In this document: positions 5,160 to 27,955 of the stretch, piece by piece
Numbering within the stretch: position 1 is the first letter of the stretch
Layout of the letters: every line of letters begins with the position of its first letter
Source: an uncultured Desulfobulbaceae bacterium
GTDB taxonomy: Bacteria; Desulfobacterota; Desulfobulbia; Desulfobulbales; CALZHT01
DNA: 33,844 nt
Direction of reading: 5' to 3'
Assembly (NCBI GenBank): GCA_945787445.1
Contig: CALZHT010000027.1
Span: forward strand, 1 to 33,844
Notes under the pieces: model-generated
Seen by the model: only the letters and a program-made list of their open reading frames with translations
What the model was told of the DNA's origin: nothing
Database searches by the model: none
Program-made: the position numbers and the translations under genes

Positions 5160-5160
5160 T

Positions 5161-5616
5161 ATCTCACGCAAAGACGCCAAGGTGAAGAGAGAGGTTTGCT
5201 TTGTGAAAGAAAATGAACTAGCCAAGGAAATTGTTGATGCTGCCTTTCTGATTCATAATGGCCTTGGTCCTGGTTTACTTGAATCTGTGTATGAAGTAGT
5301 GCTATCGAATGAACTTGAAAATCGCGGATTAACAATAGAAAGACAAAAGCCAATCCCCCTTCACTATAATGGTCTTTCGTTCAATGAGGGATTCCGAGCA
5401 GATCTTATAGTAGAAAATAAAGTGATTGTAAAACTGAAATCAGTTGTAACAATAGCACAGGTCCACATGAAGCAACTTCTCACTTATATCCGTTTGGCCG
5501 ACAAAAGACTGGTATTGTTAATCAACTTTGGCTCTGTATTAATAAAGAACGGTATCTGCAGGATAGTAAATGGACTTGAAGAATTATTATTGCGCCTTTG
5601 CGTCTTTGCGTGAGAT
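5161..5616. mobile_element. GxxExxY cassette bounded by inverted repeats
   Basis: The left end (5161-5182) reads CTCACGCAAAGACGCCAAGG after AT. The right end (5592-5616) is its inverted copy, GCGCCTTTGCGTCTTTGCGTG followed by AGAT. The single gene inside encodes a GxxExxY protein. The unit begins one base after the acp stop codon and ends six bases before the ligase start, so it fills the space between two genes that look like natural neighbours. The same repeat stands alone at 8728-8752. I recall this repeat/gene association in other bacterial genomes, but I know of no defined transposition mechanism; calling it mobile is an inference. Confidence 0.55.
5203..5613 (+). CDS. GxxExxY family protein with altered ExK motif
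   Basis: The GTG at 5203 is chosen because GAGAGAGG lies about eight bases upstream; it gives 136 residues, close to the family's usual size. A longer open frame upstream overlaps acp and is not credible. The family motif is present in 'GLLESVY' (G-x-x-E-x-x-Y), and the C-terminal half has 'QLLTYIRLADKRLVLLINF'. The family resembles PD-(D/E)xK nucleases, whose core here would be 'RADLIVENKVIVKLK'. Relatives usually read V-E-L/I-K at the end of this strand; this copy reads V-K-L-K, so the acidic residue of ExK is replaced by Lys and catalysis may be lost. Function in the family is not established. Most of the right inverted repeat is translated as the C-terminus. Confidence 0.75.
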   Translation: MKENELAKEIVDAAFLIHNGLGPGLLESVYEVVLSNELENRGLTIERQKPIPLHYNGLSFNEGFRADLIVENKVIVKLKSVVTIAQVHMKQLLTYIRLADKRLVLLINFGSVLIKNGICRIVNGLEELLLRLCVFA

Positions 5617-5622
5617 AAAAAA

Positions 5623-7647: not shown

Positions 7648-8646
7648 AAAATCTGTACCCGCTGCATTCTTCCGGAAACATTCCCGGGAATATCTTTCAA
7701 TGATGAAGGCATATGTAATCATTGCCGGAGATACCGTGGCCAACAAGCGACCGAGGAACAAAAAAAGAAATACGAACAAAAATTCCTCGACCTGATCCAC
7801 GAATCAACGAATCAACGAATCTCCCAGTCGTACGACGTCCTCATGGCTTATAGCGGAGGCAAGGACAGTACGTATACCCTCGATGTCTTTGTGAATCGCT
7901 ATAACCTTCGCGTTCTGGCCCTTACCTTTGACAATACCTTTGTTTCAAAACAGTCCTTTATTAATATGCAAAAGGTTTGCGAGAACCTGGGTGTTGATCA
8001 TCTTATCATCAGACCTGATCCGAAGATGTTGAGAAACATTTTCCGTACCGCAGCAAAAGAGGAATTATATTCTCTGAAAACATTGGAGCGCGCAAGTACC
8101 ATTTGCACGAGCTGCATCGGCCTGGTTAAGTCATTAATTTTGAGAACAGCTATTGAAAAAGAGATTCCATTTGTCGGTTTCGGCTGGTCACCAGGACAAG
8201 CGCCGGTCCAGTCATCGGTCATGAAAACTAACGCAGCCCTGATGAAAACCACACAGAAAGCAATTTATGAACCGCTTCATGCAATTGCCGCTGATGCAAT
8301 AAATCCTTGTTTTGTGACGGATGAGCAGTTTGATAATCCGGAGAAATTCCCCTGGAACATCCACCCACTTGCCTTTTTGGATTATAACGAAGAAAAGATT
8401 GTTGAAAGAAACAATGAAATCGGCTGGATAAAACCTGATGATACAGATCCGAATTCCACTAATTGTCTCTTGAATGCCTATGCAAACCAGGTCCACCGTA
8501 TAAAGTATGGCTTTCACCCCTACGTTTGGGAGATTGCCAATATGGTCCGAGCCGGGATTTTGGACCGCCAAGAGGGTATAGAGAAAATTTACCCACCAGA
8601 AAATGAGGAAATGGTGGATTATGCAAAACAGGAATTAGGTAATTAG
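7600..8646 (+). CDS. PP-loop N-acetyl-sugar amidotransferase-like protein (WbpG-like)
   Basis: This 348-residue protein has an N-terminal zinc-ribbon-like set Cys19/Cys22 and Cys39/Cys42 ('CTRCILPETFPGI', 'GICNHC'), the PP-loop 'YSGGKDS' (84-90), and a second Cys pair in 'TICTSC'. This arrangement fits the WbpG/PseA-like amidotransferases that convert a sugar N-acetyl or similar group to an acetamidino group using ammonia and ATP; the exact substrate is not visible. The start at 7600 lies in a repeat array without a Shine-Dalgarno sequence, and ATG 7621 is equally possible; conserved sequence begins at 'ICTRC'. Residues about 67-77 ('HESTNQRISQS') are encoded by a repeat insertion just before the PP-loop domain. 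It may work with the AsnB-like protein at 2802. Confidence 0.85.
   Translation: MSHEPKTMSYKQSTNPKICTRCILPETFPGISFNDEGICNHCRRYRGQQATEEQKKKYEQKFLDLIHESTNQRISQSYDVLMAYSGGKDSTYTLDVFVNRYNLRVLALTFDNTFVSKQSFINMQKVCENLGVDHLIIRPDPKMLRNIFRTAAKEELYSLKTLERASTICTSCIGLVKSLILRTAIEKEIPFVGFGWSPGQAPVQSSVMKTNAALMKTTQKAIYEPLHAIAADAINPCFVTDEQFDNPEKFPWNIHPLAFLDYNEEKIVERNNEIGWIKPDDTDPNSTNCLLNAYANQVHRIKYGFHPYVWEIANMVRAGILDRQEGIEKIYPPENEEMVDYAKQELGN
7799..7822 (+). repeat. ACGAATCA repeat inside coding sequence
   Basis: Three tandem CGAATCAA-like units lie in frame within the amidotransferase gene. They are the same motif as the intergenic arrays and encode a hydrophilic linker just before the PP-loop domain. Confidence 0.65.
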
Positions 8647-8787
8647 TTTATTCGTTCATTCGTTATTTGGTTCATTATCTTATTAACGAATCAACTATTT
8701 AACGAGATATCTAATAGACTACTCATTGCGCCTTAGCGTCTTTGCGTGAGACAATTGAACTAATCAACCAATTACCGAACCAACGAT
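8647..8787. repeat. Mixed repeat array between the amidotransferase and rmlA
   Basis: The left part has TTCGTTCATTCGTTATTTGG (one orientation). The middle and right parts have AACGAATCAACTATTTAACG and AACTAATCAACCAATTACC (the other orientation). A solo copy of the GxxExxY-end repeat interrupts it at 8728-8752. Confidence 0.6.
8728..8752. repeat. Solo copy of the GxxExxY-cassette end repeat
   Basis: GCGCCTTAGCGTCTTTGCG followed by TGAGAC matches the right end of the cassette at 5592-5616 at 23 of 25 positions. No GxxExxY gene and no inverted partner is nearby, so it is either a relic of an excised copy or an independently dispersed repeat. Confidence 0.75.
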
Positions 8788-8809
8788 TGTCCCAAAATCA
8801 GGAGAGAGA

Positions 8810-9688
8810 ATGAAAGGAATAATTCTTGCCGGTGGTTCCGGCACAAGGCTTTATCCTTTGACAAAATCAGTCAGTAAGCAATTGATGCCTGTCTATGATA
8901 AGCCGATGATATATTACCCCCTGGCAACATTGATGCTGGCTGGTATTAGAGAAATATTGATCATCACCACCCCGGAGGATCAGCTTCAGTTCCAGCGGTT
9001 GCTCGGCGAAGGCAGCCAATGGGGTATTTCCCTTGACTATGCCGAGCAGCCAAGCCCAGAAGGCCTTGCCCAAGCCTTTATCATCGGTGAATCATTTGTA
9101 GGTCATAGCAGTGTCTGTCTGGTTCTCGGGGATAATATTTTTTATGCGCATGGGCTGGCAAAGTCCCTGCAGCAAGCTGCCAGGCTGACAAGCGGTGGGA
9201 TAGTCTTTGGCTATTATGTGAAAAATCCGCAACGGTATGGCGTTATCTCCTTTGCTGAAGATGGTCGGGTCACCGGCATAGAGGAGAAACCTCACCAACC
9301 AAAGTCCAACTATGTTGTTACTGGCTTATACTTTTATGACAATGATGTTGTGCAGATTGCCAAGGGAATAAAGCCTTCGGCGCGGGGCGAACTAGAAATA
9401 ACTGATGTCAATAAGGCCTATCTTGAGCGCGGAGATTTAAAGGTCGAACTGCTGGGACGGGGCACTGCCTGGCTCGATACCGGCACCCATGATTCTTTGC
9501 TGGATGCTGCTAATTTTATTAAGGTTATTGAGGAACGGCAGGGCCTTAAGGTGGCATGCGTTGAAGAGATCGCGTTTCGCATGGGATATATTGATGCAGC
9601 GCAATTATATCGGTTGGCTGAACCCTTGCAGAAGAATGGCTATGGGCAATATATGCTCCAACTGATTGATGAAAAAAGAGGAATATGA
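8810..9688 (+). CDS. rmlA: Glucose-1-phosphate thymidylyltransferase
   Basis: This 292-residue enzyme makes dTDP-glucose from dTTP and glucose-1-phosphate, the first step to dTDP-L-rhamnose. The N-terminus '[18 protein letters not shown]' is the nucleotide-binding signature, followed by '[17 protein letters not shown]' and '[11 protein letters not shown]'; '[20 protein letters not shown]' and '[16 protein letters not shown]' are also typical. Length is normal for the short RmlA class. GGAGAGAG lies just before the ATG, unlike the repeat-embedded starts nearby. Its stop overlaps the rmlC start by four bases, so the rml genes are translationally coupled. Confidence 0.97.
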
Positions 9689-10233
9689 ACTTTTCTCCCA
9701 CACATATCCCTGAAGTAGTCTTGATAAAGCCAGATGTCTTTGAAGACCAACGCGGATTTTTCATGGAAACATGGCAGGCCGAAAAATTTGCAAACGCAGG
9801 TATTGATGCCGTCTTTGTCCAGGATAACCATAGCCGGTCAATACAGGGGAGCTTGCGGGGATTGCATTATCAGATTAAAAAGCCACAGGGTAAACTTGTT
9901 AGGGTGCTGAGTGGCGAGGTCTATGATGTTGCTGTTGATCTTAGAAAAAAATCACCATATTTCGGGCAATGGGTTAGTGAAACGCTGTCTGCGGAAAACA
10001 GGAAAATGCTCTGGATGCCGCCCGGTTTTGCCCATGGATTTTATGTTATCAGCGAGTCTGCGGAGTTTGAATACAAATCTACTGATTATTATGCCCCTGA
10101 GTTTGAAAGAACAATCCGTTGGAATGATCTTGATCTGGCTATTGATTGGCCTATATTGGCCGGCTGCTCTCCTATTCTTTCAGTAAAGGATGAGCAGGGC
10201 ATAGCATTTAAAAATGCAGAGTGCTACCTATGA
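9685..10233 (+). CDS. rmlC: dTDP-4-dehydrorhamnose 3,5-epimerase
   Basis: This 182-residue cupin enzyme epimerises C3 and C5 of dTDP-4-keto-6-deoxyglucose. Signatures are '[18 protein letters not shown]', '[20 protein letters not shown]' (with the catalytic-region His) and '[13 protein letters not shown]'. Length is normal. The start ATG overlaps the rmlA stop (ATGA), and the stop overlaps the rmlD start in the same way. Confidence 0.97.
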
Positions 10234-11099
10234 AAGTCGTTATCACTGGAGCCAATGGTCAGCTCGGATGGGAATTGCAACGAACAGAGCCGAGCGACAT
10301 ATCTTCCTATTTTTTGCATTCAAAGGAATTGGATATTTGTAATACAGTAGCAGTTCGAAAAACCATAGGAGCTATAAATCCGCAAGTGATAGTCAACTGC
10401 GCTGCCTATACGGCAGTTGACAAGGCTGAACAGGAAAAAGAGATGGCTTTTGCGGTAAATTCGCAAGGAGCGGCAAATATTGCAGAGGTTGCACGCCATA
10501 ATGGGGCTCGCCTTATCCAAATGTCAACGGATTTTGTTTTTAACGGTAAGAAATCCCAGCCGTATCTTCCTGAGGATATTCCCAACCCAATTTGTGTGTA
10601 TGGCGCCAGTAAGCTTGATGGGGAAAAGCGAGTAGCAGCCATTCATAGTGCACATACGATTATTTTGCGCACAGCCTGGTTGTATTCATCTCAGGGTAAC
10701 AATTTTGTTAAAACAATGCTTCGGCTGATGAGAGAGAGAGATCACTTGTATATTGTTTCAGATCAGGTAGGTACCCCGACTTGGGCACACGGCCTTGCTG
10801 AAACGATATGGAAATTTGTTGAGATGCCTCTTAATGGCATATTCCACTGGACTGACTCAGGAGTGGCAAGTTGGTATGACTTTGCAGTTGCCATTCAGGA
10901 GGAAGCGTTGCAGATTGGAATATTGGAAAATGAGATACCAATTACCCCCATAATGACAAAAGAGTATCATGCGCCAGCGAAACGGCCTACTTTCTCTGTT
11001 CTCGACAAGACCTCAACTAGAAAAATTTTGGGATATATATCACCTCACTGGCGAGTGTGTCTCAGGGAAATGCTAAAGGATGTGAAGAGTGAAGTATGA
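10230..11099 (+). CDS. rmlD: dTDP-4-dehydrorhamnose reductase
   Basis: This enzyme reduces dTDP-4-keto-L-rhamnose to dTDP-L-rhamnose. I chose ATG 10230 over the GTG at 10221 because it forms the usual ATGA overlap with the rmlC stop and gives the expected N-terminus '[17 protein letters not shown]'; the product is 289 residues. The Rossmann NAD(P) motif is followed by 'VNCAAYTAVDKAE', 'STDFVFNGK' and the catalytic Tyr-x3-Lys in 'YGASKLDGEK'. It is the third coupled gene of the rhamnose block. Confidence 0.96.
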   Translation: MKVVITGANGQLGWELQRTEPSDISSYFLHSKELDICNTVAVRKTIGAINPQVIVNCAAYTAVDKAEQEKEMAFAVNSQGAANIAEVARHNGARLIQMSTDFVFNGKKSQPYLPEDIPNPICVYGASKLDGEKRVAAIHSAHTIILRTAWLYSSQGNNFVKTMLRLMRERDHLYIVSDQVGTPTWAHGLAETIWKFVEMPLNGIFHWTDSGVASWYDFAVAIQEEALQIGILENEIPITPIMTKEYHAPAKRPTFSVLDKTSTRKILGYISPHWRVCLREMLKDVKSEV

Positions 11100-11462
11100 G
11101 GATTTAAAAGAAAAAGCCTCAGTCTTCTCGTCTGGCAGGTAAATCCAATGATTTGCTGTAGGATGGTTTATGTTATTAAGGATAACTTTTCGCGGTAAGC
11201 AATGTATGCGCTAGCCAAACCAGATGAGACGGGAACGTCGTCTCGATTCCGAGCAATATTGCGGAAGGAGCAGCCAGAATAAGCAAGAAAAGTTTTTCAG
11301 TTCCTTTCAATCACGCTTGGTTTTTTGACTGAATTGGAAACATGAGTGCTGATTGCCCAAAAACGAGGGTATATTTAAAGAGGAAAAGAATTTAGACAAT
11401 ATTTAAACCTTTTTGGGCCTTTAATGTGGCCTGATTGAGTCAACAGGAGAAAAGATGAGCAA
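11100..11462. other. Non-coding gap between rmlD and rmlB
   Basis: No gene is seen in this 363-base gap. It holds one small hairpin, GAGACG (11226-11231) with CGTCTC (11239-11244), without a T-run. A Shine-Dalgarno sequence AGGAG (11445-11449) lies near its end. A gap of this size inside an otherwise tight rml block is unusual and may reflect deletion or insertion of material; nothing in it resembles a known element. Confidence 0.4.
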
Positions 11463-11466
11463 ATGA
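11455..11466 (+). other. Three-codon micro-ORF overlapping the rmlB start
   Basis: ATG-AGC-AAA-TGA starts five bases after AGGAG, the ideal distance. Its TGA overlaps the rmlB ATG (11463) in an ATGA arrangement. RmlB itself is 13 bases from the Shine-Dalgarno, so initiation may occur at the micro-ORF and re-initiate at rmlB. It may instead be the original rmlB start, now disconnected by repeat insertion. Confidence 0.4.
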
Positions 11467-12593
11467 CCACCCATCACTCACCTCTCACGTCTAACACCTC
11501 ACATCTTTTAGTCACTGGAGGCGCCGGATTCATAGGAGCTAATTTCGTGAATTACTGGTTGAATAATTATCCGGATGATCGGGTCGTTGTGCTTGATGCA
11601 CTCACCTATGCCGGCAACCTGGCAAGCCTTGAACCAGCAAAAAACAATCCGAATTTTCATTTTGTCCATGGTGATATATGTAATCAAGAGCTAGCGGAAA
11701 GATTGTTACGGGATGAATCTATTGATACAATCGTGCATTTTGCCGCCGAATCCCACGTAGACCGCTCCATCCATGGCCCTGATACATTTATTCAAACCAA
11801 TATTGTTGGAACCCACTCGTTATTGAAGGCAGCAAAAAGCGTCTGGCTGGATTCTCACTCCTCACTCCTCAGACCTCAGTCCTCAGTCCTCAAACCTTAT
11901 CGCTTTCACCATGTCTCAACCGATGAAGTTTACGGGTCCTTAGGCCCTGAAGATCCTCCATTTACTGAGCATACACCTTATGCCCCCAACTCTCCCTATT
12001 CTGCAAGCAAGGCTGCCTCGGATCATCTGGTCCGAGCCTATCATCATACTCATGACTTGAATATAACCACAAGCAACTGTTCCAATAATTATGGCCCATA
12101 CCAGTTTCCGGAGAAGTTAATTCCTCTTTTTATAATCAATATCCTTGAAGGAAAACCTTTACCTGTTTATGGCGATGGCTTGAATATTAGAGACTGGTTG
12201 TATGTGGAGGACCATTGTAAAGGGATTGATTTGATTCTTCAGAAAGGGCGTCCAGGTGAAGTGTATAATATAGGAGGCAACTGTGAGAAAACTAACCTTG
12301 AAATGGTTGAGACTCTCTGTAAAAATATGGATGAACGTAAACCAAGTTCATCCCTGACTTCTTACTCCTCACTCCTCACCTTTGTAAAGGATCGACCTGG
12401 CCATGACAGGCGCTATGCTATTGATTCAAGCAAGATAAAAAAGGAACTTGGTTTTGAACCATACGAGTCATTTGAAACTGGTATCCGAAAAACTATTGAC
12501 TGGTATTTGCAAAATGAAAGCTGGTGGCGCGCTGTAATGGACGGTAGTTATCGAGAATGGCTAGACAGACAGTATGGGCAAAAACATAATTAA
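11463..12593 (+). CDS. rmlB: dTDP-glucose 4,6-dehydratase
   Basis: This 376-residue enzyme converts dTDP-glucose to dTDP-4-keto-6-deoxyglucose. It has 'LLVTGGAGFIGANFVNYW' (NAD site), 'VHFAAESHVDRSI', the catalytic-region motif 'STDEVYGSL', 'YSASKAASDHLVRAY' (Tyr-x3-Lys), and 'NCSNNYGPYQFPEKLIPL'. It is somewhat longer than the usual 350-360 residues. The excess comes from three low-complexity stretches encoded by CTCACTCCT-type DNA: the N-terminal tail 'TTHHSPLTSNTSH', 'SHSSLLRPQSSVLK' and 'SSSLTSYSSLLT'. All lie outside the core motifs in places expected to be loops, so the enzyme is probably active. It is separated from rmlACD by a 363-base gap. Confidence 0.96.
   Translation: MTTHHSPLTSNTSHLLVTGGAGFIGANFVNYWLNNYPDDRVVVLDALTYAGNLASLEPAKNNPNFHFVHGDICNQELAERLLRDESIDTIVHFAAESHVDRSIHGPDTFIQTNIVGTHSLLKAAKSVWLDSHSSLLRPQSSVLKPYRFHHVSTDEVYGSLGPEDPPFTEHTPYAPNSPYSASKAASDHLVRAYHHTHDLNITTSNCSNNYGPYQFPEKLIPLFIINILEGKPLPVYGDGLNIRDWLYVEDHCKGIDLILQKGRPGEVYNIGGNCEKTNLEMVETLCKNMDERKPSSSLTSYSSLLTFVKDRPGHDRRYAIDSSKIKKELGFEPYESFETGIRKTIDWYLQNESWWRAVMDGSYREWLDRQYGQKHN
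11466..11503 (+). repeat. CTCACCTCT-type repeat at the rmlB N-terminus
   Basis: Degenerate CTCAC/CCTCAC units (ATCACTCACCTCTCACGTC and AACACCTCACATC) encode the first dozen residues of RmlB, ahead of the conserved 'LLVTGGAGFIG'. Confidence 0.55.
11853..11895 (+). repeat. ACTCCTC / CCTCAGT heptamer repeat inside rmlB
   Basis: Units CTCACTC, CTCACTC, CTCAGAC, CTCAGTC, CTCAGTC and CTCAAAC follow at a seven-base period, in frame, and encode the loop just before 'YRFHHVSTDEVYG'. Confidence 0.75.
12351..12380 (+). repeat. Second ACTCCTC repeat inside rmlB
   Basis: CTTACTCCTCACTCCTCACC repeats the same heptamer in frame and encodes 'SYSSLLT' just before 'RPGHDRRYAID'. Confidence 0.7.
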
Positions 12594-16388: not shown

Positions 16389-17165
16389 ATGAAGATAGTC
16401 GTATTAATAAAAAGTGTTCCTGATACCGCATCAATTTTTAAAGTTGCAGAGGATAATAAATTTGTAGTCATCGGTAACCCAAAATTTATTATGAGTCCAT
16501 ATGACGAGTATGCTCTGGAAGAGGCCATAAAGGTAAAAGAATCTGTCTCCGGGGAAGTGGTTGTTGTGAGTTTTGGTGACGAGAATGCCCTGGAAGTCAT
16601 GCGTACAGCTTTGGCTGTTGGCGCAGATTCAGCAATTCTCGTTGAAAATTCTGATGCAGATAGCTTTACTGGTAAAGGGGTCTCCAAGGTATTGGCTGCT
16701 GTTATAAAAACACTTTCACCAAACATCATATTCGCAGGAAAACAGGCCGTGGATGATGATGGTTGTCAAGTCCCGGAGCGTGTGGCAGAGATCCTGGGGA
16801 TCTCCCATGCCTCAGCGGTTACCCGCTTTGAACTCCAAGGATTGACAGCTGAGGCGGACCGTGAAGTTGAAGGGGGGTATTGCACTATGGAAATAACATT
16901 TCCTGCGCTGTGTACTGTTGAAAAGGGAATAAACACCCCACGATATCCGACATTGCCAAACATCATGAAAGCAAAGCGAAAAGAAATTAGGAAAATGACC
17001 CTGGAAGAGTTAAATCTCAGTGCAGATGATGTCAGACCTGGTCTGACAGTGAACTCTATCTCCCTCCCCCGACAGGAGCGTCTTTTGAAAAAACTGGAAG
17101 GAGAGATTGGCGCCCAGGTAAAGCAACTGACCTCCATTCTCCGTGAAGAAAAAATTGGTTTATGA
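16389..17165 (+). CDS. etfB: Electron transfer flavoprotein beta subunit
   Basis: This 258-residue protein begins 'MKIVVLIKSVPDTA' and continues 'NPKFIMSPYDEYALEEAI', 'GKQAVDDDGCQVPERVAEIL' and 'RYPTLPNIMKAKRKEIR', the ETF-beta pattern. GAGGG lies six bases before the ATG. With EtfA it forms an FAD/AMP heterodimer that accepts electrons from acyl-CoA dehydrogenase-type enzymes. It starts the etfB-etfA-etfD unit; the nearest dehydrogenase is the ACAD-like gene at 21533. Bifurcating ETFs are the alternative, but the membrane-anchored FeS partner two genes on favours simple transfer to quinone. Confidence 0.95.
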   Translation: MKIVVLIKSVPDTASIFKVAEDNKFVVIGNPKFIMSPYDEYALEEAIKVKESVSGEVVVVSFGDENALEVMRTALAVGADSAILVENSDADSFTGKGVSKVLAAVIKTLSPNIIFAGKQAVDDDGCQVPERVAEILGISHASAVTRFELQGLTAEADREVEGGYCTMEITFPALCTVEKGINTPRYPTLPNIMKAKRKEIRKMTLEELNLSADDVRPGLTVNSISLPRQERLLKKLEGEIGAQVKQLTSILREEKIGL

Positions 17166-17181
17166 TAAAAGGGGATTCTTT

Positions 17182-18144
17182 ATGAGTATTTTAGCACTGA
17201 TAGCACAACAAGGCGAACTGAAGAGCTCAGCTCTCGAAGCGGTGTCCGTAGCAAATCAGATCGCCCAAAAAGCGGATATGCAATTGATCGCTGTTTACAT
17301 TGGCCCACCCTTGGCTGATCAGCTAAAAAGGCTCGAAGGTTTTGGAATAGAAAAGATTGTCGTTTTTGAGAGTGAAGCTGTTACGTACTATCAAAACGAC
17401 ATTTGCGTGCCGATCCTTCAGAAACTAGTTACAGAATTTGATATTAAGGTAATCATCGGATCTGCCACATCAATTGGCAAGGAGGTCTGTGCCTCTATAG
17501 CTGCAAAACTGGATGCGGAATTGATTCAGGACTGTATTGAGGTAGATTGGGACGATGGCCTGCAAGCAAAGAAACCAATTTTTGCTGGAAAGATCATTTC
17601 TGATATCAGCTTTACAAATATGCCTGCCATAATTTCCGTACGCCCGAACATTTTACCGGTTATCAGGAACAGAGAAGGTGCTCCTGAAATTATAAAACGT
17701 GAGATGCCCCACGTGCCACATGCTAAAAGTATAAAAAATATAGTGAGAGAGGCAAAAAGCGGGGTTGAATTGACTGAGGCTAAGGTAATAGTTGCCGGTG
17801 GACGAGGGATAGGTGGCCCGGAGAACTGGCCTGTTCTTCAGGAGTTATGTGATGTCATGGGTGCCGCGCTGGGCGCGAGCAGATCCGCTGTTGATGCCGG
17901 CTGGATCCATCATACTCATCAAATTGGCCAGACCGGGAAAGTGGTCAGTCCTGATCTGTATATCGCTTGCGGTATCTCTGGAGCTATTCAGCACCAGGCA
18001 GGCATGAGAAACTCCAAGGTCGTCGTGGCTATCAACAAGGACCCTGGTGCCGAAATCTTCAGTAGTTGTGACTATGGGATTGTTGGCGACCTTTTTGAGG
18101 TCGTACCCCTGCTGACAAAGGAAATGAGAAAGCTTTTATCATGA
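17182..18144 (+). CDS. etfA: Electron transfer flavoprotein alpha subunit
   Basis: The ATG at 17182 has AGGGGA seven bases upstream and gives 320 residues; a GTG at 17143 in the same frame would overlap etfB. The C-terminal FAD domain is clear: 'VIVAGGRGIGGPENW', 'GASRSAVDAGWI', 'QIGQTGKVVSPDLYIA', 'GISGAIQHQAGM' and 'AINKDPGAEIF'. It is the FAD-binding partner of EtfB. Its stop overlaps the start of the next gene (ATGA), so the two are coupled. Confidence 0.95.
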   Translation: MSILALIAQQGELKSSALEAVSVANQIAQKADMQLIAVYIGPPLADQLKRLEGFGIEKIVVFESEAVTYYQNDICVPILQKLVTEFDIKVIIGSATSIGKEVCASIAAKLDAELIQDCIEVDWDDGLQAKKPIFAGKIISDISFTNMPAIISVRPNILPVIRNREGAPEIIKREMPHVPHAKSIKNIVREAKSGVELTEAKVIVAGGRGIGGPENWPVLQELCDVMGAALGASRSAVDAGWIHHTHQIGQTGKVVSPDLYIACGISGAIQHQAGMRNSKVVVAINKDPGAEIFSSCDYGIVGDLFEVVPLLTKEMRKLLS

Positions 18145-20114
18145 CAATTGGCAACATCATCATACTGGTTTTACTTAGCGCCTCTCTCTCCTTTTTTTCA
18201 TTTCGCCTCTTGCATTTACTCAAACTGATCGCCCTTGGCCAGGGTGCGTTGCCGTTAGATCGAAAAGCCCATCGAATCAAACGGTTATTGATTGATGGAT
18301 TTGGGCAACGCCGTGTTCTTAAACAGTTTTCCGGAGTTGGTCATTTCTTCATCTTTTGGGGATTTTTCTTTGTATCCTTTGGTACTATCGAAGGCTTAAT
18401 ATCAAGCATAATACCTCGGTTTTCTTTTTCCTTTTTAGGTGACCCCTTCTATTTGTTTATGAATTTTGGCCAAGATGTTTTCGGACTATTTGTCATTGGC
18501 GCACTTCTGGTCTCATTATACAGACGATTTGTTATCCGTCCTGTCCGGATGGAAGGAGCATTTTCTCATACTGTTGACGCACTTATAATCATCACCCTGA
18601 TTTTTGTCTTGCTTATAATGTCTTATGGGATGCGTGTCATTGATCCCAAACCAGGCTGGACGCCAGTGGCAGATGTGCTGCGTGAGTTTATTTTCCACGG
18701 AACAGTCAGCTCAACTTCATACAGTGTGGCTTATGCTAGTTTTGAATGGATACACCATAGCGTTGTTTTATGTTTTTTAATTTATATTCTCTACTCAAAA
18801 CACACCCATATTTTATTTGCGTTACCCAACATTTTCCTGAAACCTGACAAGCCTCTAGGTTTGATTGAAAAATTGGACCTGGAGGATGAAACCGTGGAGC
18901 ATTTCGGGATTCAGGGCATCACCGATTTTACAAAAAAGGATCTCCTTGACCTGTTTGCCTGTACAGAGTGCGGCCGGTGTCAGGAAGCCTGTCCCGCTTA
19001 TATTACCGGAAAACCATTAAGCCCGAAAAAGGTTATCCTGAACCTCAAGGAACATTTACTTGAGGCAGGGCCAGCGCTGTTAAAGAAATCTGAAACAGAA
19101 TTTTCTCAACCCTTATACTCCGATGTCATTAATAAAGATATGCTGTGGTCTTGTACTACTTGTTACGCCTGCGAAGAAGCTTGCCCTGTTGGCATCGCCC
19201 CCATGAAGAAAATTATAGGGATTCGGCAAGCACGAGTTCTCATGGAAGGCGATTTCCCGGAAGAGGCCCAGCGAGCCTTGCGGAACATTGAAACACAATC
19301 TAATCCTTGGGGACTTCCCCAGCAACAACGAGGTCAATGGGCAGAGGGACTGGGGATAAAGACCCTGGCTGAAAATCCTGATGTAGAGTACTTATTTTTT
19401 GCAGGGTGTGCCGGATCCTATGATCAACGGTATATTTCAGTGAGCAAAGCAATAGCAGCAATTCTCCAAAAGGCGGGAATACAATTTGGAATTCTTGGCA
19501 ATGAGGAGTTGTGCACCGGTGACAGCGCCAAGCGTATTGGCAATGACTATCTTGCCCAGGAGTTAGCTGTTGCCAATATTGCAATATTTAATCGTTATGG
19601 AGTGAGGAAAATTATTACATCGTGTCCTCACTGCTTCAATACCTTAAAAAATGAATATCCTGAGTATGGCGGTTGTTTTGAAGTTATTCACCACTCAGAC
19701 TTGATAGTTGATCTCATTACAAGTGGAAGGCTTCAACCTCATTCCCGACTTCCTGTCGATACAAAAAAAATAACCTACCATGACTCCTGTTATCTTGGGC
19801 GATACAATCAAATAATGGATGCGCCTAGAGAAGTAATCGCTCGCCTGAAAGGAAGCAAACTGGTTGAGCTCAAACGCAACCGGGAAAATAGTTTCTGCTG
19901 TGGTGCAGGTGGTGGCAGGATGTGGATGGAGGAGAAGATAGGCACTGCCATTAATGTAGCTCGTTCGCGGGAAATAATAGATTCTGGTGTCGATACAGTG
20001 GCAACAGCATGTCCTTTCTGCATGAACATGCTGGCTGACGGAATAAAACAAGAAGGCAGAGTGGAAGAAATTAAGATTCGTGATATCGCGGAAATCGTTG
20101 CTGAAGCGTTGTGA
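18141..20114 (+). CDS. EtfD-type membrane iron-sulfur oxidoreductase (ETF:menaquinone route)
   Basis: This 657-residue protein has an N-terminal membrane domain of five or six helices (about residues 1-225), similar to the heme-binding NarI-like domain. A dicluster ferredoxin domain follows: Cys274/277/280/284 ('CTECGRCQEACP') and Cys338/341/344/348 ('CTTCYACEEACP'). Two CCG-type domains come next, the second with 'HDSCYLGRYNQ' and 'FCCGAGGGRMW'; the first is reduced ('FFAGCAG'). This architecture belongs to the HdrD-like oxidoreductases encoded with etfBA that pass electrons from ETF to menaquinone. The four-base overlap with etfA supports a complex. A terminator follows at 20168. Confidence 0.92.
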   Translation: MTIGNIIILVLLSASLSFFSFRLLHLLKLIALGQGALPLDRKAHRIKRLLIDGFGQRRVLKQFSGVGHFFIFWGFFFVSFGTIEGLISSIIPRFSFSFLGDPFYLFMNFGQDVFGLFVIGALLVSLYRRFVIRPVRMEGAFSHTVDALIIITLIFVLLIMSYGMRVIDPKPGWTPVADVLREFIFHGTVSSTSYSVAYASFEWIHHSVVLCFLIYILYSKHTHILFALPNIFLKPDKPLGLIEKLDLEDETVEHFGIQGITDFTKKDLLDLFACTECGRCQEACPAYITGKPLSPKKVILNLKEHLLEAGPALLKKSETEFSQPLYSDVINKDMLWSCTTCYACEEACPVGIAPMKKIIGIRQARVLMEGDFPEEAQRALRNIETQSNPWGLPQQQRGQWAEGLGIKTLAENPDVEYLFFAGCAGSYDQRYISVSKAIAAILQKAGIQFGILGNEELCTGDSAKRIGNDYLAQELAVANIAIFNRYGVRKIITSCPHCFNTLKNEYPEYGGCFEVIHHSDLIVDLITSGRLQPHSRLPVDTKKITYHDSCYLGRYNQIMDAPREVIARLKGSKLVELKRNRENSFCCGAGGGRMWMEEKIGTAINVARSREIIDSGVDTVATACPFCMNMLADGIKQEGRVEEIKIRDIAEIVAEAL

Positions 20115-21532: not shown

Positions 21533-22678
21533 ATGGATTTCTCTTGGTCCGATGATCAATTGAACCTGAAAGAATCCGCAATTAAATTTGCTAAAAAGGA
21601 GTTAAATAATCAACTCATTCAACGAGATCAGAGGGGAGTATTCTCCCGTGAACTCTGGGAAAAATGTGCTGATTTTGGCGTACAAGGTATGGCATTTCCA
21701 GAGAAATATGGGGGCATCAACGCGGATATCTTAACCACAATGCTCGTCATGGAGGGATTGGGTTACGGGTGTAAAGACAACGGTTTGATATTCGGGATCA
21801 ATGCCCAAATGTGGAGTGTTCAAATGCCTATCTTGAGGTTCGGCTCCGATGCTCAAAAGAGTAAGTACCTGCCTAACCTTTGTAGCGGAAAATGGATAGG
21901 GGGCCATGGAATGACGGAACCTGATTCGGGTTCCGATGCCTTTAGTCTAAGAACTTCAGCAAAATTGAAAAACGGGTGTTATATACTAAACGGCACCAAA
22001 ACATTTGTGACCAATGCTCCTGAGGCCAATGTGTTTCTCGTTTTTGCCACCGTCGATAAAAAGTTAGGATTCATGGGTGTTACTGGATTTATCATAGAAA
22101 AAGACTTTCCTGGTTTTCATGTAGGTAAACCAATTGAAAAAATGGGCTTAAGAACAAATAATATGGCTGAATTGATACTTGAAGATTGCGAAGTGCCGGT
22201 GGAGAACCGGCTCGGGGAAGTTGGCAGTGGAGCCGCCGTGTTTAATGACTCCATGGAGTGGGAGAGGAGTTGTATTTTAGCCAGCAATTTAGGCGGAATG
22301 GAAAGACAACTCGAGATGTGTATCAACTATGCCAAAGAACGCAAACAGTTTAATAAACCTATTGGGAAATTTCAAGCCGTGGCCAACAAAATTGTGGACA
22401 TGAAAGTTCGACTGGAAACCTCCCGCCAAATTTTATACAAAGTTGCATGGTTAAAGAAAACTGAGAGCCAAGCGGTTATGGACGCTGCCATTGCCAAATT
22501 ATACTTGAGTGAAGCATGGGTAAAATCGTGTCTTGATGCGATTCAAATTCATGGCGGTTATGGCTTTACAACCGAATTTGAGGTAGAGCGAGATCTCCGA
22601 GATTCTATTGGAGGGACATTATATTCAGGTACATCGGAGATTCAACAAAATATTATTGCACATCAATTAGGGCTTTAA
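21533..22678 (+). CDS. Acyl-CoA dehydrogenase-like enzyme, probable prolyl-carrier-protein dehydrogenase
   Basis: This 381-residue flavoprotein has AGGGAGG just before the ATG and the ACAD fold signatures 'GHGMTEPDSGSDAFSLRT', 'NGTKTFVTNAPEANVF', 'KERKQFNKPIGKFQ' and 'QIHGGYGFTTEFEVERDLRD'. The usual catalytic Glu of 'YEGTSEIQ' is Ser365 here ('YSGTSEIQ'). A Glu244 in 'EWERSCILA' aligns with the base of isovaleryl-CoA dehydrogenase, as expected for the PigA/PltE/RedW family that oxidises carrier-bound proline to pyrrole-2-carboxyl. An adenylation enzyme with a proline-type pocket and a carrier protein follow. Electrons probably go to the ETF encoded upstream. An ordinary branched-chain acyl-CoA dehydrogenase is the alternative, but no CoA-pathway genes accompany it. 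Confidence 0.8.
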   Translation: MDFSWSDDQLNLKESAIKFAKKELNNQLIQRDQRGVFSRELWEKCADFGVQGMAFPEKYGGINADILTTMLVMEGLGYGCKDNGLIFGINAQMWSVQMPILRFGSDAQKSKYLPNLCSGKWIGGHGMTEPDSGSDAFSLRTSAKLKNGCYILNGTKTFVTNAPEANVFLVFATVDKKLGFMGVTGFIIEKDFPGFHVGKPIEKMGLRTNNMAELILEDCEVPVENRLGEVGSGAAVFNDSMEWERSCILASNLGGMERQLEMCINYAKERKQFNKPIGKFQAVANKIVDMKVRLETSRQILYKVAWLKKTESQAVMDAAIAKLYLSEAWVKSCLDAIQIHGGYGFTTEFEVERDLRDSIGGTLYSGTSEIQQNIIAHQLGL

Positions 22679-22837
22679 TACTGTTTGGACCTCCCAAAGA
22701 AATGAGGGTATCGGTTGCTGGCAAAGGGAGTGGGATGAGTATTAGGAAAGTAAAAACATCGAATCAAATTTATTTAGTACCATTTTATTATGAGTATAGA
22801 AGATACAATACGATCTCATTGAAAAGGAGTTGGGATT

Positions 22838-24364
22838 ATGAGTTTAAAAGATCTTCTTGTCCTCAGTGCTAAACGTACGCCAGATGCTCTGGCCGTCAAA
22901 GGCCCTGATGAAAGCTTGACCTATGGTGAAATAGATCGACTGGCCAACCGTATAGCACGGGCGCTGGATGATTCAGGGGTCCGCAAAGGAGACCGTGTGG
23001 GGATCTGGCTCGACAAATCAGTGCGTGCTGTAGCGGCGATGCAAGGAGTTTTACGCCTTGGGGCAGCATATGTACCACTTGACCCGCTTTCTCCTGCCTA
23101 TCGTGTACGATCCATTATACAGGATTGTGATATGCGGGCGTTTGTGAGCACGGCAAAGGGTGCTGAAACCACGCTGACAGACAGTAACGCGAATGTGGCC
23201 AGCCTATGTACAGACAATACGGGACAAGGGTTGAGCTGGGATGACTTGCAGTCTTTTTCGGATGAGCCCTTTGAAGGGCCAAAGTCTGGAGAAAATGATC
23301 TTGCCTTCATATTGTACACATCCGGTTCGACTGGAAAGCCTAAAGGTGTCTGTATCAGCAACCTCAACGCACTAGCATTTATCGAGTGGGCTGGTGATGA
23401 AATAAAAGTAAATTCGGACGACCGCTTCTCCAACCATGCTCCATTTCACTTCGACTTGTCCGTACTGGATCTGTATGTAGCTTTCCGGGCAGGGGCCTCT
23501 GTCATTCTAATTCCCGACATGCTGTCATATGCACCCCGAAGATTGGTCAATCTAATCCAGCAGGAAGAAGTTACAATATGGTATTCTGTACCATCGGCAT
23601 TGATCCTCATGATGGAACAAGGCGGACTGTTAGAAGAGCAGACTATCCCGCTGCGAGCCATTCTTTTTGCCGGAGAACCGTTTCCCATCAAGCACTTGAG
23701 GCGGCTTTATGAACGTTGGTCGGCAGTGAGATTTTTGAATCTCTATGGCCCGACCGAAACGAATGTCTGTACTTTTTATGAGGTAAGAGGAATTAAAAAA
23801 GATCGCACTAAACCAGTTCCTATTGGACGTGGATGTTCTGGTGATCGGGTGTGGGCAGTTAAAGACGATGGCACTGAAACAAAACCAGGTGAAGAAGGGG
23901 AGTTGATGGTTTCGGGACCTACCGTCATGCTGGGCTATTGGGGACATCCAGCCCATGGCGACAAGCCTTATCCTACCGGTGATATGGTTCGGCTGGAGAA
24001 AGATGGCAACTACGACTACGTCGGTCGCCGCGATCATATGGTTAAGGTACGCGGCCACAGAGTAGAGCTTGGCGAAATCGAGGCTGCATTGGGGGGGCAC
24101 ACTGATATTCACGAGGTGGCGGTTGTAGTATCCAGTTCTGATATGAATACCCGTCTGATTGCCTTTATAGTCTGCAACGACAACACACGCCCGACGTTTC
24201 TGGATATCAAACGGCACTGTGCAGAGCGACTGCCACGGTATATGATTGTCGATGATGTTAGTTTTCTTAACGAACTTCCTCGTACAAGAAACGGAAAAGT
24301 AGATCGCCTTAAACTAAAACAGGATGCTGAAAATATTTATAAAAAGAAGGATGACATAAAATGA
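22838..24364 (+). CDS. Stand-alone adenylation enzyme, probable L-prolyl-AMP ligase
   Basis: This 508-residue NRPS-type adenylation protein has AAGGAG nine bases ahead of the ATG, 'LYTSGSTGKPKG' (159-170), 'HFDLSVLDLYV' (A4), 'LNLYGPTETNVC' (A5) and 'NGKVDRLK' with Lys487. Aligning by eye on the PheA pocket gives Asp206, Leu207, Leu210, Tyr249, Leu276, Ala278, Leu302, Val310 and Cys311: D-L-L-Y-L-A-L-V-C. From memory this is the code of the prolyl-AMP ligases of pyrrole pathways (RedM, PltF), distinct from the D-V-Q type of modular NRPS proline domains. It should charge the carrier encoded next, whose start overlaps its stop by four bases. It is unlike the ligase at 5623. Confidence 0.85.
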   Translation: MSLKDLLVLSAKRTPDALAVKGPDESLTYGEIDRLANRIARALDDSGVRKGDRVGIWLDKSVRAVAAMQGVLRLGAAYVPLDPLSPAYRVRSIIQDCDMRAFVSTAKGAETTLTDSNANVASLCTDNTGQGLSWDDLQSFSDEPFEGPKSGENDLAFILYTSGSTGKPKGVCISNLNALAFIEWAGDEIKVNSDDRFSNHAPFHFDLSVLDLYVAFRAGASVILIPDMLSYAPRRLVNLIQQEEVTIWYSVPSALILMMEQGGLLEEQTIPLRAILFAGEPFPIKHLRRLYERWSAVRFLNLYGPTETNVCTFYEVRGIKKDRTKPVPIGRGCSGDRVWAVKDDGTETKPGEEGELMVSGPTVMLGYWGHPAHGDKPYPTGDMVRLEKDGNYDYVGRRDHMVKVRGHRVELGEIEAALGGHTDIHEVAVVVSSSDMNTRLIAFIVCNDNTRPTFLDIKRHCAERLPRYMIVDDVSFLNELPRTRNGKVDRLKLKQDAENIYKKKDDIK

Positions 24365-24636
24365 AACAAACTGAAATTCTCGATGAGTTGAAAGGATACA
24401 TTTCACGTGAGGTTCTGGATGGCAAAGATGTCGGCCTGGACGAATCGACTCCGCTGCTTGAATGGGGGATTATCGATTCAATGGGGATGGCAAATATGGT
24501 GAGCTTTATTCAGAATCGGTTCCATGTTGAGATACCGGATGATATGATCCTTCCCGAGCACTTCATAAATCTGTCGGCCTTATCTAATTTGGTGGTATCT
24601 TTGACAATGGGAGGTAATGATATATCAGGATCGTAA
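24361..24636 (+). CDS. Peptidyl carrier protein
   Basis: This 91-residue carrier has the phosphopantetheine site 'GIIDSMG' with Ser40. The ATGA overlap with the adenylation gene indicates coupled translation and a direct partnership. In the proposed pathway, proline is loaded here and oxidised while bound. Its size fits the free-standing carriers of that module (PigG, PltL, RedO). The acp at 4914 is its counterpart for the other ligase. Confidence 0.88.
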   Translation: MKQTEILDELKGYISREVLDGKDVGLDESTPLLEWGIIDSMGMANMVSFIQNRFHVEIPDDMILPEHFINLSALSNLVVSLTMGGNDISGS

Positions 24637-24706
24637 AAAGCTATACCAATTAGTTCGAAGGCGGGCTAACGGTCAGTAATTGCAATAGATTAAGGAGTGA
24701 ATGATT

Positions 24707-24814
24707 GTGTCTTTAAACGATATGCACGAACCTGTTGCCACAACCGGGATCGGCTATCGTTTCCCTGGTGCTCGCAATCCAAGGGAATTCTGGAAAATTA
24801 AACACGATCAATAG
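24707..24814 (+). pseudogene. Stub of a type I PKS ketosynthase N-terminus
   Basis: After AAGGAG (24692-24697) a GTG at 24707 (or in-frame ATG 24701) opens 35 codons containing 'VATTGIGYRFPGARNPREFW', the standard opening of type I polyketide synthase ketosynthases ('IGxRFPGAxxPxEFW'). The frame then runs into TAG at 24812, thirteen bases before the next gene. The catalytic Cys and both His regions are absent, so it cannot be active. It marks where a PKS gene once followed the carrier protein, which is where pyrrolyl-starter pathways place their elongating synthase. A deletion joining to the GNAT gene explains it best. Confidence 0.75.
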
Positions 24815-24826
24815 GGGAACTCACAT

Positions 24827-25924
24827 ATGACATCCACGACCATAAGGCCGCTCACCCCTGATGATATGGAAAGAATGGAAGCGCTGCTACAGACACGCGA
24901 TGATACAGATCCACAAAAGACAAAAATGAGGTTAAAGATTTTATCGTGGTTGGCATTTGAAAACCCCTTCGCAGATGACCAACCAACCTATTTCATTGCA
25001 GACAACGGTAAAGAGATCATCGCTCATCTTGGCAAAATGCCGATTGAATTCATAATCGATGGCAGGCTCCAAAAAGGTTACTTTATCCACGATCTATTTG
25101 TTCACCCGAATTATCGAAAGAATGGAGGCGGTTTTTTTCTATCAATGCAATTATATCAGTCAGTTGAAAAAAGCCTGGATTCATTTGCATTGCTAATCTG
25201 GACCAATAAGCAGAACTTGGCAATGCAAAAGACGAGGGGTTATCATGAGCTCTATGCCGATCGCTACCGCAAATTCATCTACCCCGATTTGTTTCTGAAA
25301 AAACATATTAAACCGGATATATTGGCCCGCTTGAGTAGTTTCATTCTCCGAAAAATTATGACCGCCATTGATTGGATCTTATGTCTCCCGATACCTACAG
25401 GTATACCGGTTCGTAAGATCAAATCGTTGAGCGATCAATTTGATCGGCCGAATCCTAACCTAATTCAAAATATCGGTATATGCCCTTTTCCCAGTAGCCA
25501 ATACCTAAACTGGCACTACATTAACAACCCGTTTAGCGAGATGGAGATCTTGATTGCTGAAGAAAACGATCAAATACGTGGATATATCGTTTTATGCACC
25601 ATCTTGACGGAATCACATCATGAGGGTTTCATCGTCGATATTATGGTTAATCCCAATGATAAACGAACCCTCCGCTCTCTACTCAGAGCCAGCGTGAAAT
25701 ACATGCGCTCTGAGAATGTCAATTCCATTAGGTGTTGTCTGAGTGATCCAAAATTGTCTCGATTTTTGAAAAGCTGGCTGTTTTTTAGGAATAATTTTAA
25801 AAAGGAACCGATTATGCTCGCCAACTTTAGCAACCACGAAGAACATTCAAGATTAATAGATATTCGCAATTGGCATATAACATACGGTGTTTCGGACGCA
25901 TTTGTATTTAAGCCGTCCGAATAG
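24827..25924 (+). CDS. GNAT-family acyltransferase
   Basis: This 365-residue protein has GGGGAA about seven bases before the ATG. The first half is a GNAT domain with 'YFIHDLFVHPNYRKNGGGFFLS' split around the acyl-CoA pyrophosphate loop near residues 94-103; the second half ('EMEILIAEENDQIRGYIVLC', 'GFIVDIMVNP') looks like a second, diverged GNAT unit. Double-GNAT proteins in EPS loci acylate sugar amines or related acceptors. Directly after a carrier-protein module, it is a candidate for moving the carrier-bound acyl group onto a sugar; two deacetylases that could expose the amine follow. Donor and acceptor are not shown by the sequence. Confidence 0.75.
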   Translation: MTSTTIRPLTPDDMERMEALLQTRDDTDPQKTKMRLKILSWLAFENPFADDQPTYFIADNGKEIIAHLGKMPIEFIIDGRLQKGYFIHDLFVHPNYRKNGGGFFLSMQLYQSVEKSLDSFALLIWTNKQNLAMQKTRGYHELYADRYRKFIYPDLFLKKHIKPDILARLSSFILRKIMTAIDWILCLPIPTGIPVRKIKSLSDQFDRPNPNLIQNIGICPFPSSQYLNWHYINNPFSEMEILIAEENDQIRGYIVLCTILTESHHEGFIVDIMVNPNDKRTLRSLLRASVKYMRSENVNSIRCCLSDPKLSRFLKSWLFFRNNFKKEPIMLANFSNHEEHSRLIDIRNWHITYGVSDAFVFKPSE

Positions 25925-25935
25925 ATAGGGTATAG

Positions 25936-27069
25936 TTGTTTTGCAATTCTATCTATCCGACTTTTATTAAAGACTCTATCGTATCTCGTATAGCCAATAG
26001 TGCAGGGGTGCGCGTGACTTTGAAAGCGATTATAAAAAAAAAATTATGTAAAATAATCTGTCAGCTAGGATTGCCTAAGTTGATGCATAAAAGCATTGCT
26101 GAAAACGATTTGACGATTATCACTTATCATGGAATTGTAGACGAGCCACTAAAAATATTTGACTGGTGTTTTCTTGATAAAGATTCATTTCGTGAACAAG
26201 TTGTCTATCTGAAAAATCATTTTAATGTTGTTCAACTTTCCAAAGCAATCGAGTTAATCATAAATGGACAGCTTGAAAATTCAACTGCTGTTATAACCTT
26301 TGATGATGGGTTTCAAAACAATTTTGATGTTGCTTACCCAATTCTAAAAGACGCTGGAGTGCCTGCAACAATTTTTATATCAACTGGGTATGTTGATACG
26401 GAGGATACCATATGGTTTTGTAGGCTCAATCAAGCCTTCAATAGATCATTTAAGAGAGAGCTTCATTGGAATAGCCATTGCTTTAACATCGAAGACATAG
26501 AGAAAAAATATATTGCATCATCTAAAATAACATTCGAATTGAAGGCCTTACCACATTCTCGGCTGATAAAAGAAGTTAAATCGATAATCTCTCAGCTAGG
26601 TGACAACTTTCATGAACCAGTTGGCTTGGATTCCCCTTATCGCATGCTATGCAGTAACGCAATTAAAAAAATGGTGGAGTCAGGTTTGATAGAATTTGGT
26701 GCCCATACACATACTCATGCAATTTTGAGCCCCCTGCCCTCAAAGGAAAAACAAAAAGAAATAATAAAATCAGTTTCAGAGCTTGAAAAGATAACCAAAA
26801 CACCCTGCAAACTTTTCGCTTATCCTAACGGTGGCGCTGCTGACTTTGATAATGAAACTATACGTATACTTAAATCATTAGGGATTAATGCGGCTGTTTC
26901 AATGATACCAGGTCCTAACTTTTCTGACACTCAACTCTTGCAACTTAGACGTTATTCGGTAGGTGCTGATACAAACATTGAACAATTCAAAACAATTGTT
27001 CATCATTTGGATTGGACACTTAAAAAATTCTATTTAAATAAAGGCAGTAAGAATCAAGTGAGATATTAA
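25936..27069 (+). CDS. Polysaccharide deacetylase (NodB-like)
   Basis: The NodB homology domain is clear: 'TFDDGFQNNF' with Asp123/Asp124, the metal motif His-x3-His in 'FGAHTHTHAIL', and 'KLFAYPNGG'. It probably removes N-acetyl groups from a polysaccharide or a lipid-linked sugar. The start is uncertain. TTG 25936 follows TAGGG and gives 377 residues; GTG 26008 or 26014 would also leave the domain intact, since conserved sequence begins at 'LTIITYHGIVDEP'. No signal peptide is obvious, so the site of action is unclear. Confidence 0.88.
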   Translation: MFCNSIYPTFIKDSIVSRIANSAGVRVTLKAIIKKKLCKIICQLGLPKLMHKSIAENDLTIITYHGIVDEPLKIFDWCFLDKDSFREQVVYLKNHFNVVQLSKAIELIINGQLENSTAVITFDDGFQNNFDVAYPILKDAGVPATIFISTGYVDTEDTIWFCRLNQAFNRSFKRELHWNSHCFNIEDIEKKYIASSKITFELKALPHSRLIKEVKSIISQLGDNFHEPVGLDSPYRMLCSNAIKKMVESGLIEFGAHTHTHAILSPLPSKEKQKEIIKSVSELEKITKTPCKLFAYPNGGAADFDNETIRILKSLGINAAVSMIPGPNFSDTQLLQLRRYSVGADTNIEQFKTIVHHLDWTLKKFYLNKGSKNQVRY

Positions 27070-27136: not shown

Positions 27137-27955
27137 ATGTTTCAACCTCTGATTTTAGAGATTTACCGATCTATATTATTCAAGAGAATCAAACTTTTGG
27201 ATTCAGACAGTCTTAAAGGGAAAACAATTGTGTTCGCACCACATCAGGATGATGAAACACTTGGTTGTGGAGGAACAATTTATTTGAAAAAACAGGCCGG
27301 AACCTATGTGAAGATAGTTTTTTTTGCTGATGGATCTAATTCACATTCAGGGCTGATTGCAAGAGATAAATTACGTAATATTCGAGCATCGGAAGCTGTA
27401 GCCGCCGCAAGTGACCTTGGTGTTGAGGAAAAGGATATAATATTCCTTGGATATGAAGATGGAAAAATAGATGAGAATAGAGATAGTGCCATAACACAAG
27501 TAGAGGATATCCTTAAGCAGGAGGAACCTAAACATATATTCATTCCATCTTTGAATGAACCACCGATGGATCATTGGGCAACCGCTGAAATTGTGATTTC
27601 CGCTTTGGAAAAAATGACTTTTCCTACAAATGTATATGAATACCCGGTTTGGTTATGGCACCAGTGGCCTTGGACAAAAATTGATTATGCTGGGTATCGA
27701 AAGATTACTTTGTGGAAGAAGATGATCAAGAGTGCTCCAGGATTTAGCTCAATATTTCAGTTCAGGTATGGCGTAAATATTAAGAATATACTGAATGTGA
27801 AAAAGAGTGCTCTCAAAAAGCATCGATCCCAAATGACACGCAATCAATCCAATCCAGCAGCGGAAATACTTCCCGACGTAGGCGATGGTACTTTTTTAAA
27901 TTGTTTTTTTACTGATTATGAGGTGTTTAGGAAAATCGGCGATTGTCACCCCTGA
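27137..27955 (+). CDS. PIG-L/LmbE-family deacetylase
   Basis: This 272-residue protein has 'VFAPHQDDETLGCGGT', the zinc site His36/Asp39 with catalytic Asp38, and a later 'PMDHWATAEIV' supplying the third zinc His. The family hydrolyses N-acetylglucosamine-type amides. AAAGG lies six bases ahead of the ATG. Paired with the GNAT enzyme, it could expose a sugar amine for re-acylation, as PIG-L enzymes do in other pathways. Substrate not determined. Confidence 0.9.
   Translation: MFQPLILEIYRSILFKRIKLLDSDSLKGKTIVFAPHQDDETLGCGGTIYLKKQAGTYVKIVFFADGSNSHSGLIARDKLRNIRASEAVAAASDLGVEEKDIIFLGYEDGKIDENRDSAITQVEDILKQEEPKHIFIPSLNEPPMDHWATAEIVISALEKMTFPTNVYEYPVWLWHQWPWTKIDYAGYRKITLWKKMIKSAPGFSSIFQFRYGVNIKNILNVKKSALKKHRSQMTRNQSNPAAEILPDVGDGTFLNCFFTDYEVFRKIGDCHP

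Follow-up and report, generated by a model that had tools for sequence, protein, structure and literature searches.

Genes at the locus

We analysed a window of 33,844 nt, meaning the whole stretch of contig CALZHT010000027.1 studied here, from the genome of an uncultured Desulfobulbaceae bacterium (GCA_945787445.1; 227 contigs, 95.6% complete). On its forward strand lie, in order, a prolyl-carrier-protein dehydrogenase (21533–22678), a stand-alone proline adenylation (A) enzyme (22838–24364), a carrier protein (PCP/ACP; 24361–24636), a ketosynthase (KS) stub (24701–24814), a GNAT-type acyltransferase (24827–25924), a polysaccharide deacetylase (25936–27069) and a PIG-L family deacetylase (27137–27955). 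The first three genes are referred to below as the trio.

The dehydrogenase has an acyl-CoA dehydrogenase fold and is AnaB/PigA-like. Among solved structures it matched best the prolyl-ACP dehydrogenase AnaB (4irn, 482 bits), ahead of 6cxt (322 bits) and 5zw0 (317 bits), and it shares with AnaB the segment SMEWER, which we take to hold the catalytic Glu. These matches point to a prolyl-carrier dehydrogenase, with NCBIfam scores for PigA (446 bits; cut-off 500) and RedW (398 bits; cut-off 650) that both fall below the equivalog cut-offs. The A enzyme (TIGR01733, 353 bits) was closest among solved structures to the L-proline--PCP ligase PltF (PDB 6o6e, 494 bits; next match 395 bits), with which it shares the specificity-pocket segments HFDLSVLD, IWYSVPS, LFAGEPF and GPTETNVCT, indicating a proline-specific enzyme. 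The stand-alone carrier scored 24.5 bits against PF00550 (cut-off 20.8) and has the phosphopantetheine serine in a DSMG site. All three frames are open, and their catalytic motifs are intact in alignments.

The trio most likely still makes an oxidised prolyl thioester, either pyrroline or pyrrole. The product reported for AnaB, the prolyl-ACP dehydrogenase of the anatoxin pathway, is pyrroline-5-carboxyl-AnaD, i.e., pyrroline-5-carboxyl-ACP (PMC3252866), and RedW, PltE and Bmp3 yield pyrrole (PMC10849742). Since the nearest solved dehydrogenase is the pyrroline-forming AnaB, the pyrrolyl starter proposed in the initial annotation is unproven, though the PigA profile also scored high. Just upstream of the dehydrogenase (16389–20114) are genes for ETF beta, ETF alpha and a membrane Fe-S (heterodisulfide-reductase-like) protein, which are a possible electron outlet for this enzyme.

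On the right flank, the GNAT matched PF00583 in two stretches (5.7e-11), and the two deacetylases matched PF01522 and PF02585, respectively. Read from translations, with profile checks on part of the locus, the frames right of the PIG-L deacetylase appear to encode a glycosyltransferase, a sulfotransferase, a flippase and a Wzy-like protein, the left side holds an exosortase-like gene, the ETF genes and dTDP-sugar genes, and the locus also includes asparagine synthase and sugar transferase genes. The setting of the trio thus appears to be an exopolysaccharide locus. Homologues of the GNAT in phylum genomes (22–26%) also occurred in polysaccharide loci, several of them directly beside a polysaccharide deacetylase; two such deacetylases matched that of the window at 44% (L180) and 40% (L183). 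In these two loci the pair of GNAT and polysaccharide deacetylase recurs at 9373–11743 and 8628–10949, respectively. In none of the relatives searched did a polyketide synthase (PKS) gene lie between a carrier gene and a GNAT homologue, which is where the initial annotation had suggested looking for an intact one. The GNAT family seems to belong to polysaccharide loci and would not be a natural neighbour of a PKS.

Other features of the locus were also recorded. A second carrier and AMP-ligase pair (TIGR03098-like, 394 bits; cut-off 592) lies at 4914–7149, and a frame overlapping the end of the first carrier (5047–5613) reads as GxxExxY-type, with a similar protein at L182 7260–7655. Searches for tRNA, Rfam and terminator signals returned none of note. 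An AlphaFold model of the GNAT from the single sequence was discarded (mean pLDDT 33).

The ketosynthase remnant

A frame of 35 codons had been described at 24707–24814 as opening like a type I PKS ketosynthase, and it was present at that position, running from GTG 24707 to the TAG that ends at 24814. Read from the in-frame ATG at 24701 instead, the peptide has 37 residues (MIVSLNDMHEPVATTGIGYRFPGARNPREFWKIKHDQ). The RBS-like sequence AAGGAG, read directly on the forward strand at 24692–24697, lies 9 nt upstream of the GTG and 3 nt upstream of the ATG, and this spacing leaves the start uncertain; the ribosome binding site claimed earlier is present as an RBS-like sequence, and GTG is one of two possible starts. 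Between the TAG and the ATG of the GNAT gene (24827) there are 12 bases rather than the 13 counted previously.

The ketosynthase assignment was borne out by four comparisons. The stub scored 21.2 bits against PF00109 (gathering score 20.8), covering profile positions 2–24 of 252, and a phmmer search of PDB sequences returned the KS of PikA1 (E=1.2e-4). With a profile made from ten KS N-termini of the source genome and its order relatives, the stub was the sole match (E=1.5e-7; next 0.31) among the 990 stop-to-stop frames of at least 20 aa in the whole window. It was also 55% identical to the first 33 residues of a PKS from Brasilonema, described below (blastp E=3e-10, small database). Over 25 positions, 16 residues were identical with PikA1 and 15 with the Brasilonema PKS; the stub is equally near both, so its kinship to the latter rests on gene order.

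The stub thus covers the N-terminal ~33 residues of a KS-first type I PKS, followed by TAG, and we have little doubt that it is a remnant of such a gene. Because the distance from the KS motif to the start codon is short, as in KS-first PKS proteins, the stub most likely represents a genuine 5' gene end rather than part of an internal module. The frame ends at residue 37, and the catalytic Cys/His/His and the KS C-terminal domain are absent from it; it is a KS remnant, not a KS. Two of its buried positions carry T in place of the I or V present in each of the 13 KSs compared, which would fit what is expected after loss of function.

The rest of the PKS was searched for in the window and in the genome. 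A tblastn search of the window with the Brasilonema PKS matched residues 1–33 only, ending at 24808; residues 34–947, the halogenase, and the later C and carrier parts of the NRPS gave no match there. The Brasilonema NRPS matched the window through its A domain alone, and the second Brasilonema PKS matched only the stub, with weak KS similarity. Other matches to the Brasilonema PKS in the source genome were separate KS genes at about 30% identity, and the rest of the assembly contained neither a KS body of that type nor a headless KS. With its catalytic parts missing from both the window and the remaining assembled sequence, the PKS is dead, and the stub is all that stands for an elongating PKS alongside the trio. 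The genome also holds two other type I PKS-like KS-AT proteins (L093 2131–7095 on contig C121 and L094 739–3417 on contig C104), one of which carries a KR domain; both are only about 30% like the Brasilonema PKS. At the apparent junction (24806–24826), PKS similarity ends at the codon GAT (24806–24808) and the leader of the GNAT gene follows, its start lying 18 bases past that end. Repeats that could serve as integration marks at the block edges were just short and imperfect, with no evident meaning.

The Brasilonema counterpart and trios in other genomes

A plasmid protein search placed the closest relative found for the A gene on pBOCT1 of Brasilonema octagenarum UFV-E1 (QDL19054.1, 72.4% over 98%), in a cluster at 158–178 kb of CP030122.1. 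This is the only close relative known, and no other A gene above 46% identity was found in 395 phylum genomes. The nucleotide identity between the window and pBOCT1 was 68.8% over 22854–24488. The plasmid carries, in order, genes for a P450, a dehydrogenase, an A enzyme, an ACP, a Trp-halogenase-like protein, a KS-AT-ACP protein, an NRPS and a second PKS; identities to the window are 46% for the dehydrogenase, 72% for the A enzyme and 49% for the ACP, and the first PKS opens with a KS leader similar to the stub. The two loci thus share the dehydrogenase-A-carrier order with a similar KS start downstream, but Brasilonema has a halogenase, a complete KS, an NRPS and a second PKS, and the stretch read contains no GNAT or deacetylase. 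By this gene order, the intact PKS expected downstream of this carrier is present in a cyanobacterium, which contradicts the view that a PKS is never found at this position; the earlier statement that it comes right after the carrier agrees with Brasilonema in having a KS-first PKS downstream, but not in adjacency, as the halogenase lies between. A 90-aa fragment of a second halogenase (L165 21537–21809) and a first PKS in which the AT profile matched in part (L165 18537–21380; 2–121 of 319) were observed in the Brasilonema cluster, which may be decaying too.

We compared the A and dehydrogenase identities across 17 trios (136 pairs). The dehydrogenase was nearly always the better conserved, with a median difference (A minus dehydrogenase) of -0.088. 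For the window and Brasilonema the difference was +0.253 (0.717 vs 0.464), and the next largest was +0.019. The A tree joined the window and Brasilonema at 100/100. The dehydrogenase tree placed them apart, but the AU test does not reject their grouping (p=0.25); this tree was set aside as proof of mosaicism on its own, and the identity contrast carries the case. Similarity to pBOCT1 begins at nucleotide 22854 and, in protein, at A residue 1 (22838), and the gene to the left is without it, so that the intergenic stretch 22679–22837 is the probable left edge of the Brasilonema-like block. Since the A gene is far nearer to Brasilonema than the dehydrogenase is, the block appears mosaic, and the A gene, carrier and KS start probably have a different history from the dehydrogenase, joined to it by a splice. 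A mosaic block could have been truncated before it arrived, and polyketide production by the host lineage may never have occurred. The earlier proposal that an ancestor of this lineage made one finds no support in these differing affinities.

The suggested dN/dS comparison was reduced to pN/pS, with Brasilonema alone near enough and synonymous sites saturated. The values were 0.21 for the A gene (95% 0.18–0.25), 0.39 for the carrier and 0.37 for the stub (0.19–0.60). The A gene thus appears conserved over a long branch, but because of the saturation these ratios say little on selection after the cut.

Relatives were sampled in the order and class (258 genomes), and a further 395 genomes were drawn from the remainder of the phylum. 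In the order and class, only five others combined a dehydrogenase at about 50% or more with an A gene. In one of the same order (G163; dehydrogenase 59% identical), dehydrogenase, A gene and carrier are directly followed by a 2698-aa C-PCP-KS-AT-DH-ER-KR-ACP protein; G172 and G228 have an NRPS-like frame two genes beyond, and G230 has the same order within its short contig. The family relatives G001 and G002 are without the dehydrogenase. The phylum draw yielded the trio without a KS in G533, G318, G395, G549 and G530, set in polysaccharide loci in at least the first four, and the carrier is directly followed by a GNAT in G318 and by a hexapeptide acyltransferase in G533. In loci L146, L147, L148, L149, L153 and L166, the proline A enzyme, carrier and prolyl dehydrogenase occur without a PKS, with polysaccharide genes around them in at least L146–L149 and L166; in L146 and L147 the gene immediately following the carrier encodes an acyltransferase. 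An arginase-family gene was noted beside the dehydrogenase in L146 (by profile) and L147 (by similar translation). Microvirga pMVF16-2 has carrier, A gene and dehydrogenase beside polysaccharide genes, and Roseovarius has the trio genes beside polysaccharide export genes and an NRPS. Dehydrogenase matches in L150 and L151 were set aside, as by translation these look like fatty-acid-type loci with no A-carrier pair. An A-domain scan of the genome contigs gave just general NRPS A domains at 30% or less, with patterns too unspecific.

Origin of the junction and a possible role of the trio

Our preferred reading, which we consider likely, is that the stub is a PKS relic at a mosaic splice and that the trio may now serve a glycan. 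The stub would be what is left of the 5' end of a KS-first type I PKS gene, and the block of A gene, carrier and PKS start would be related to a cyanobacterial natural-product cluster. At its left join this block would meet a prolyl-carrier dehydrogenase of another lineage; at its right join, a breakpoint about 33 codons into the PKS would have fused it to a GNAT-deacetylase pair already present in an exopolysaccharide locus. The stub would then lie where the natural-product block meets the polysaccharide module. As judged from sequence, the remnant, its intact counterpart elsewhere, the mosaic structure and the polysaccharide setting are well supported; the order of events, the present product and the acceptor are what we infer from them.

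A simple loss in place, in which a complete cluster once stood here, the lineage made the polyketide and a deletion left the first PKS codons, is unlikely, yet it fares best among the alternatives. The dehydrogenase-A-carrier-PKS start order agrees with that of Brasilonema, the halogenase aside, and a homologous trio precedes an NRPS-PKS protein in the same order (G163). However, the dehydrogenase and A gene differ in their affinities, the family relatives do not have the dehydrogenase, and the GNAT and deacetylase on the right belong to polysaccharide loci. Somewhat less probable still is that the trio itself is decaying, a relic without an outlet once the PKS was gone. The PKS is indeed gone and a dedicated transferase is unproven, but the three frames are open with intact catalytic motifs, the A gene has its low pN/pS over a long branch, and other genera keep the trio without a PKS in polysaccharide loci.

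We regard it as improbable that the trio serves another synthase in trans: the genome encodes at least two other type I KS-AT proteins, but these lie on separate contigs (short ones, with no trio seen near them), and their KSs have only distant similarity to the Brasilonema PKS. A draft assembly error at the junction, with a full PKS in the organism, is marginally less credible again. PKS genes are repeat-prone and may drop out of an assembly in 227 contigs, yet there is no headless KS body elsewhere, the spacing to the GNAT is operon-like and the genome is nearly complete. It is very improbable that the frame works as a short gene or resembles a KS by accident: it does have a start and an RBS-like sequence, but its KS match is far above chance, and the same short frame, whose conservation in relatives would have marked it as a gene, was absent from all 15 other trio loci tested.

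In the preferred reading of a relic at a mosaic splice, the intact-looking trio would still charge the carrier with proline, which is then oxidised to a pyrroline- or pyrrole-carboxyl group. This acyl group would be handed, probably by the GNAT, to an amino sugar freed by the deacetylases, replacing polyketide extension. Amino-sugar acylation has the best support as an outlet: polysaccharide loci are a recurrent setting of the trio, two of these loci place an acyltransferase after the carrier, and in the window deacetylases lie close by. Against a dedicated GNAT-carrier link stands the occurrence of GNAT relatives in loci that lack the trio. That a proline-derived acyl group decorates the glycan is therefore offered as a possibility of slightly less than even weight. 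Of almost the same weight is the full scenario, in which a starter module captured from a polyketide cluster, its PKS since lost, decorates an exopolysaccharide with pyrroline or pyrrole acyl groups through the GNAT and deacetylases, with the stub as a scar.

Known systems offer partial likenesses. The cyanobacterial anatoxin-a genes anaBCDE supply a prolyl-ACP dehydrogenase, a proline A enzyme and an ACP, followed by the PKS AnaE (PMC3252866). The window differs from this pathway in being without a functional PKS and in its polysaccharide setting. The pyoluteorin starter is made by PltF, PltE and PltL with the halogenase PltA, followed by the PKSs PltB and PltC. The window resembles it in the PltF-like A enzyme and in the logic of proline loading, oxidation and PKS extension, but its dehydrogenase is less like 5zw0, it has no halogenase and its PKS is a stub. 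Clorobiocin and coumermycin biosynthesis, in which CloN2/CloN7-type transferases move a proline-derived pyrrole from its carrier to a sugar with no polyketide extension step, works like the decoration proposed here. For ACP-using acyltransferases in exosortase/polysaccharide loci, FeeM-type N-acyl amino acid synthases are a precedent (PMC7293339), but the GNAT of the window gave no match to such a family in the profile search.

The remnant itself is ordinary gene decay, and the part worth following is the mosaic setting in a polysaccharide locus. The stub fixes the cut end of the mosaic block and marks a secondary-metabolite starter module inside such a locus, and the independent examples of the trio in other genera have no PKS beside them. 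To our knowledge, proline-derived heterocycles on bacterial exopolysaccharides have so far not been looked for, and a search for proline-derived pyrrole on polysaccharides gave nothing relevant in the literature collection searched. Should the trio supply a glycan acyltransferase, proline-derived heterocycles would be present on bacterial exopolysaccharides, and comparable trios, located among polysaccharide genes in more than one phylum, would represent an undescribed class of heterocycle-decorated glycans.
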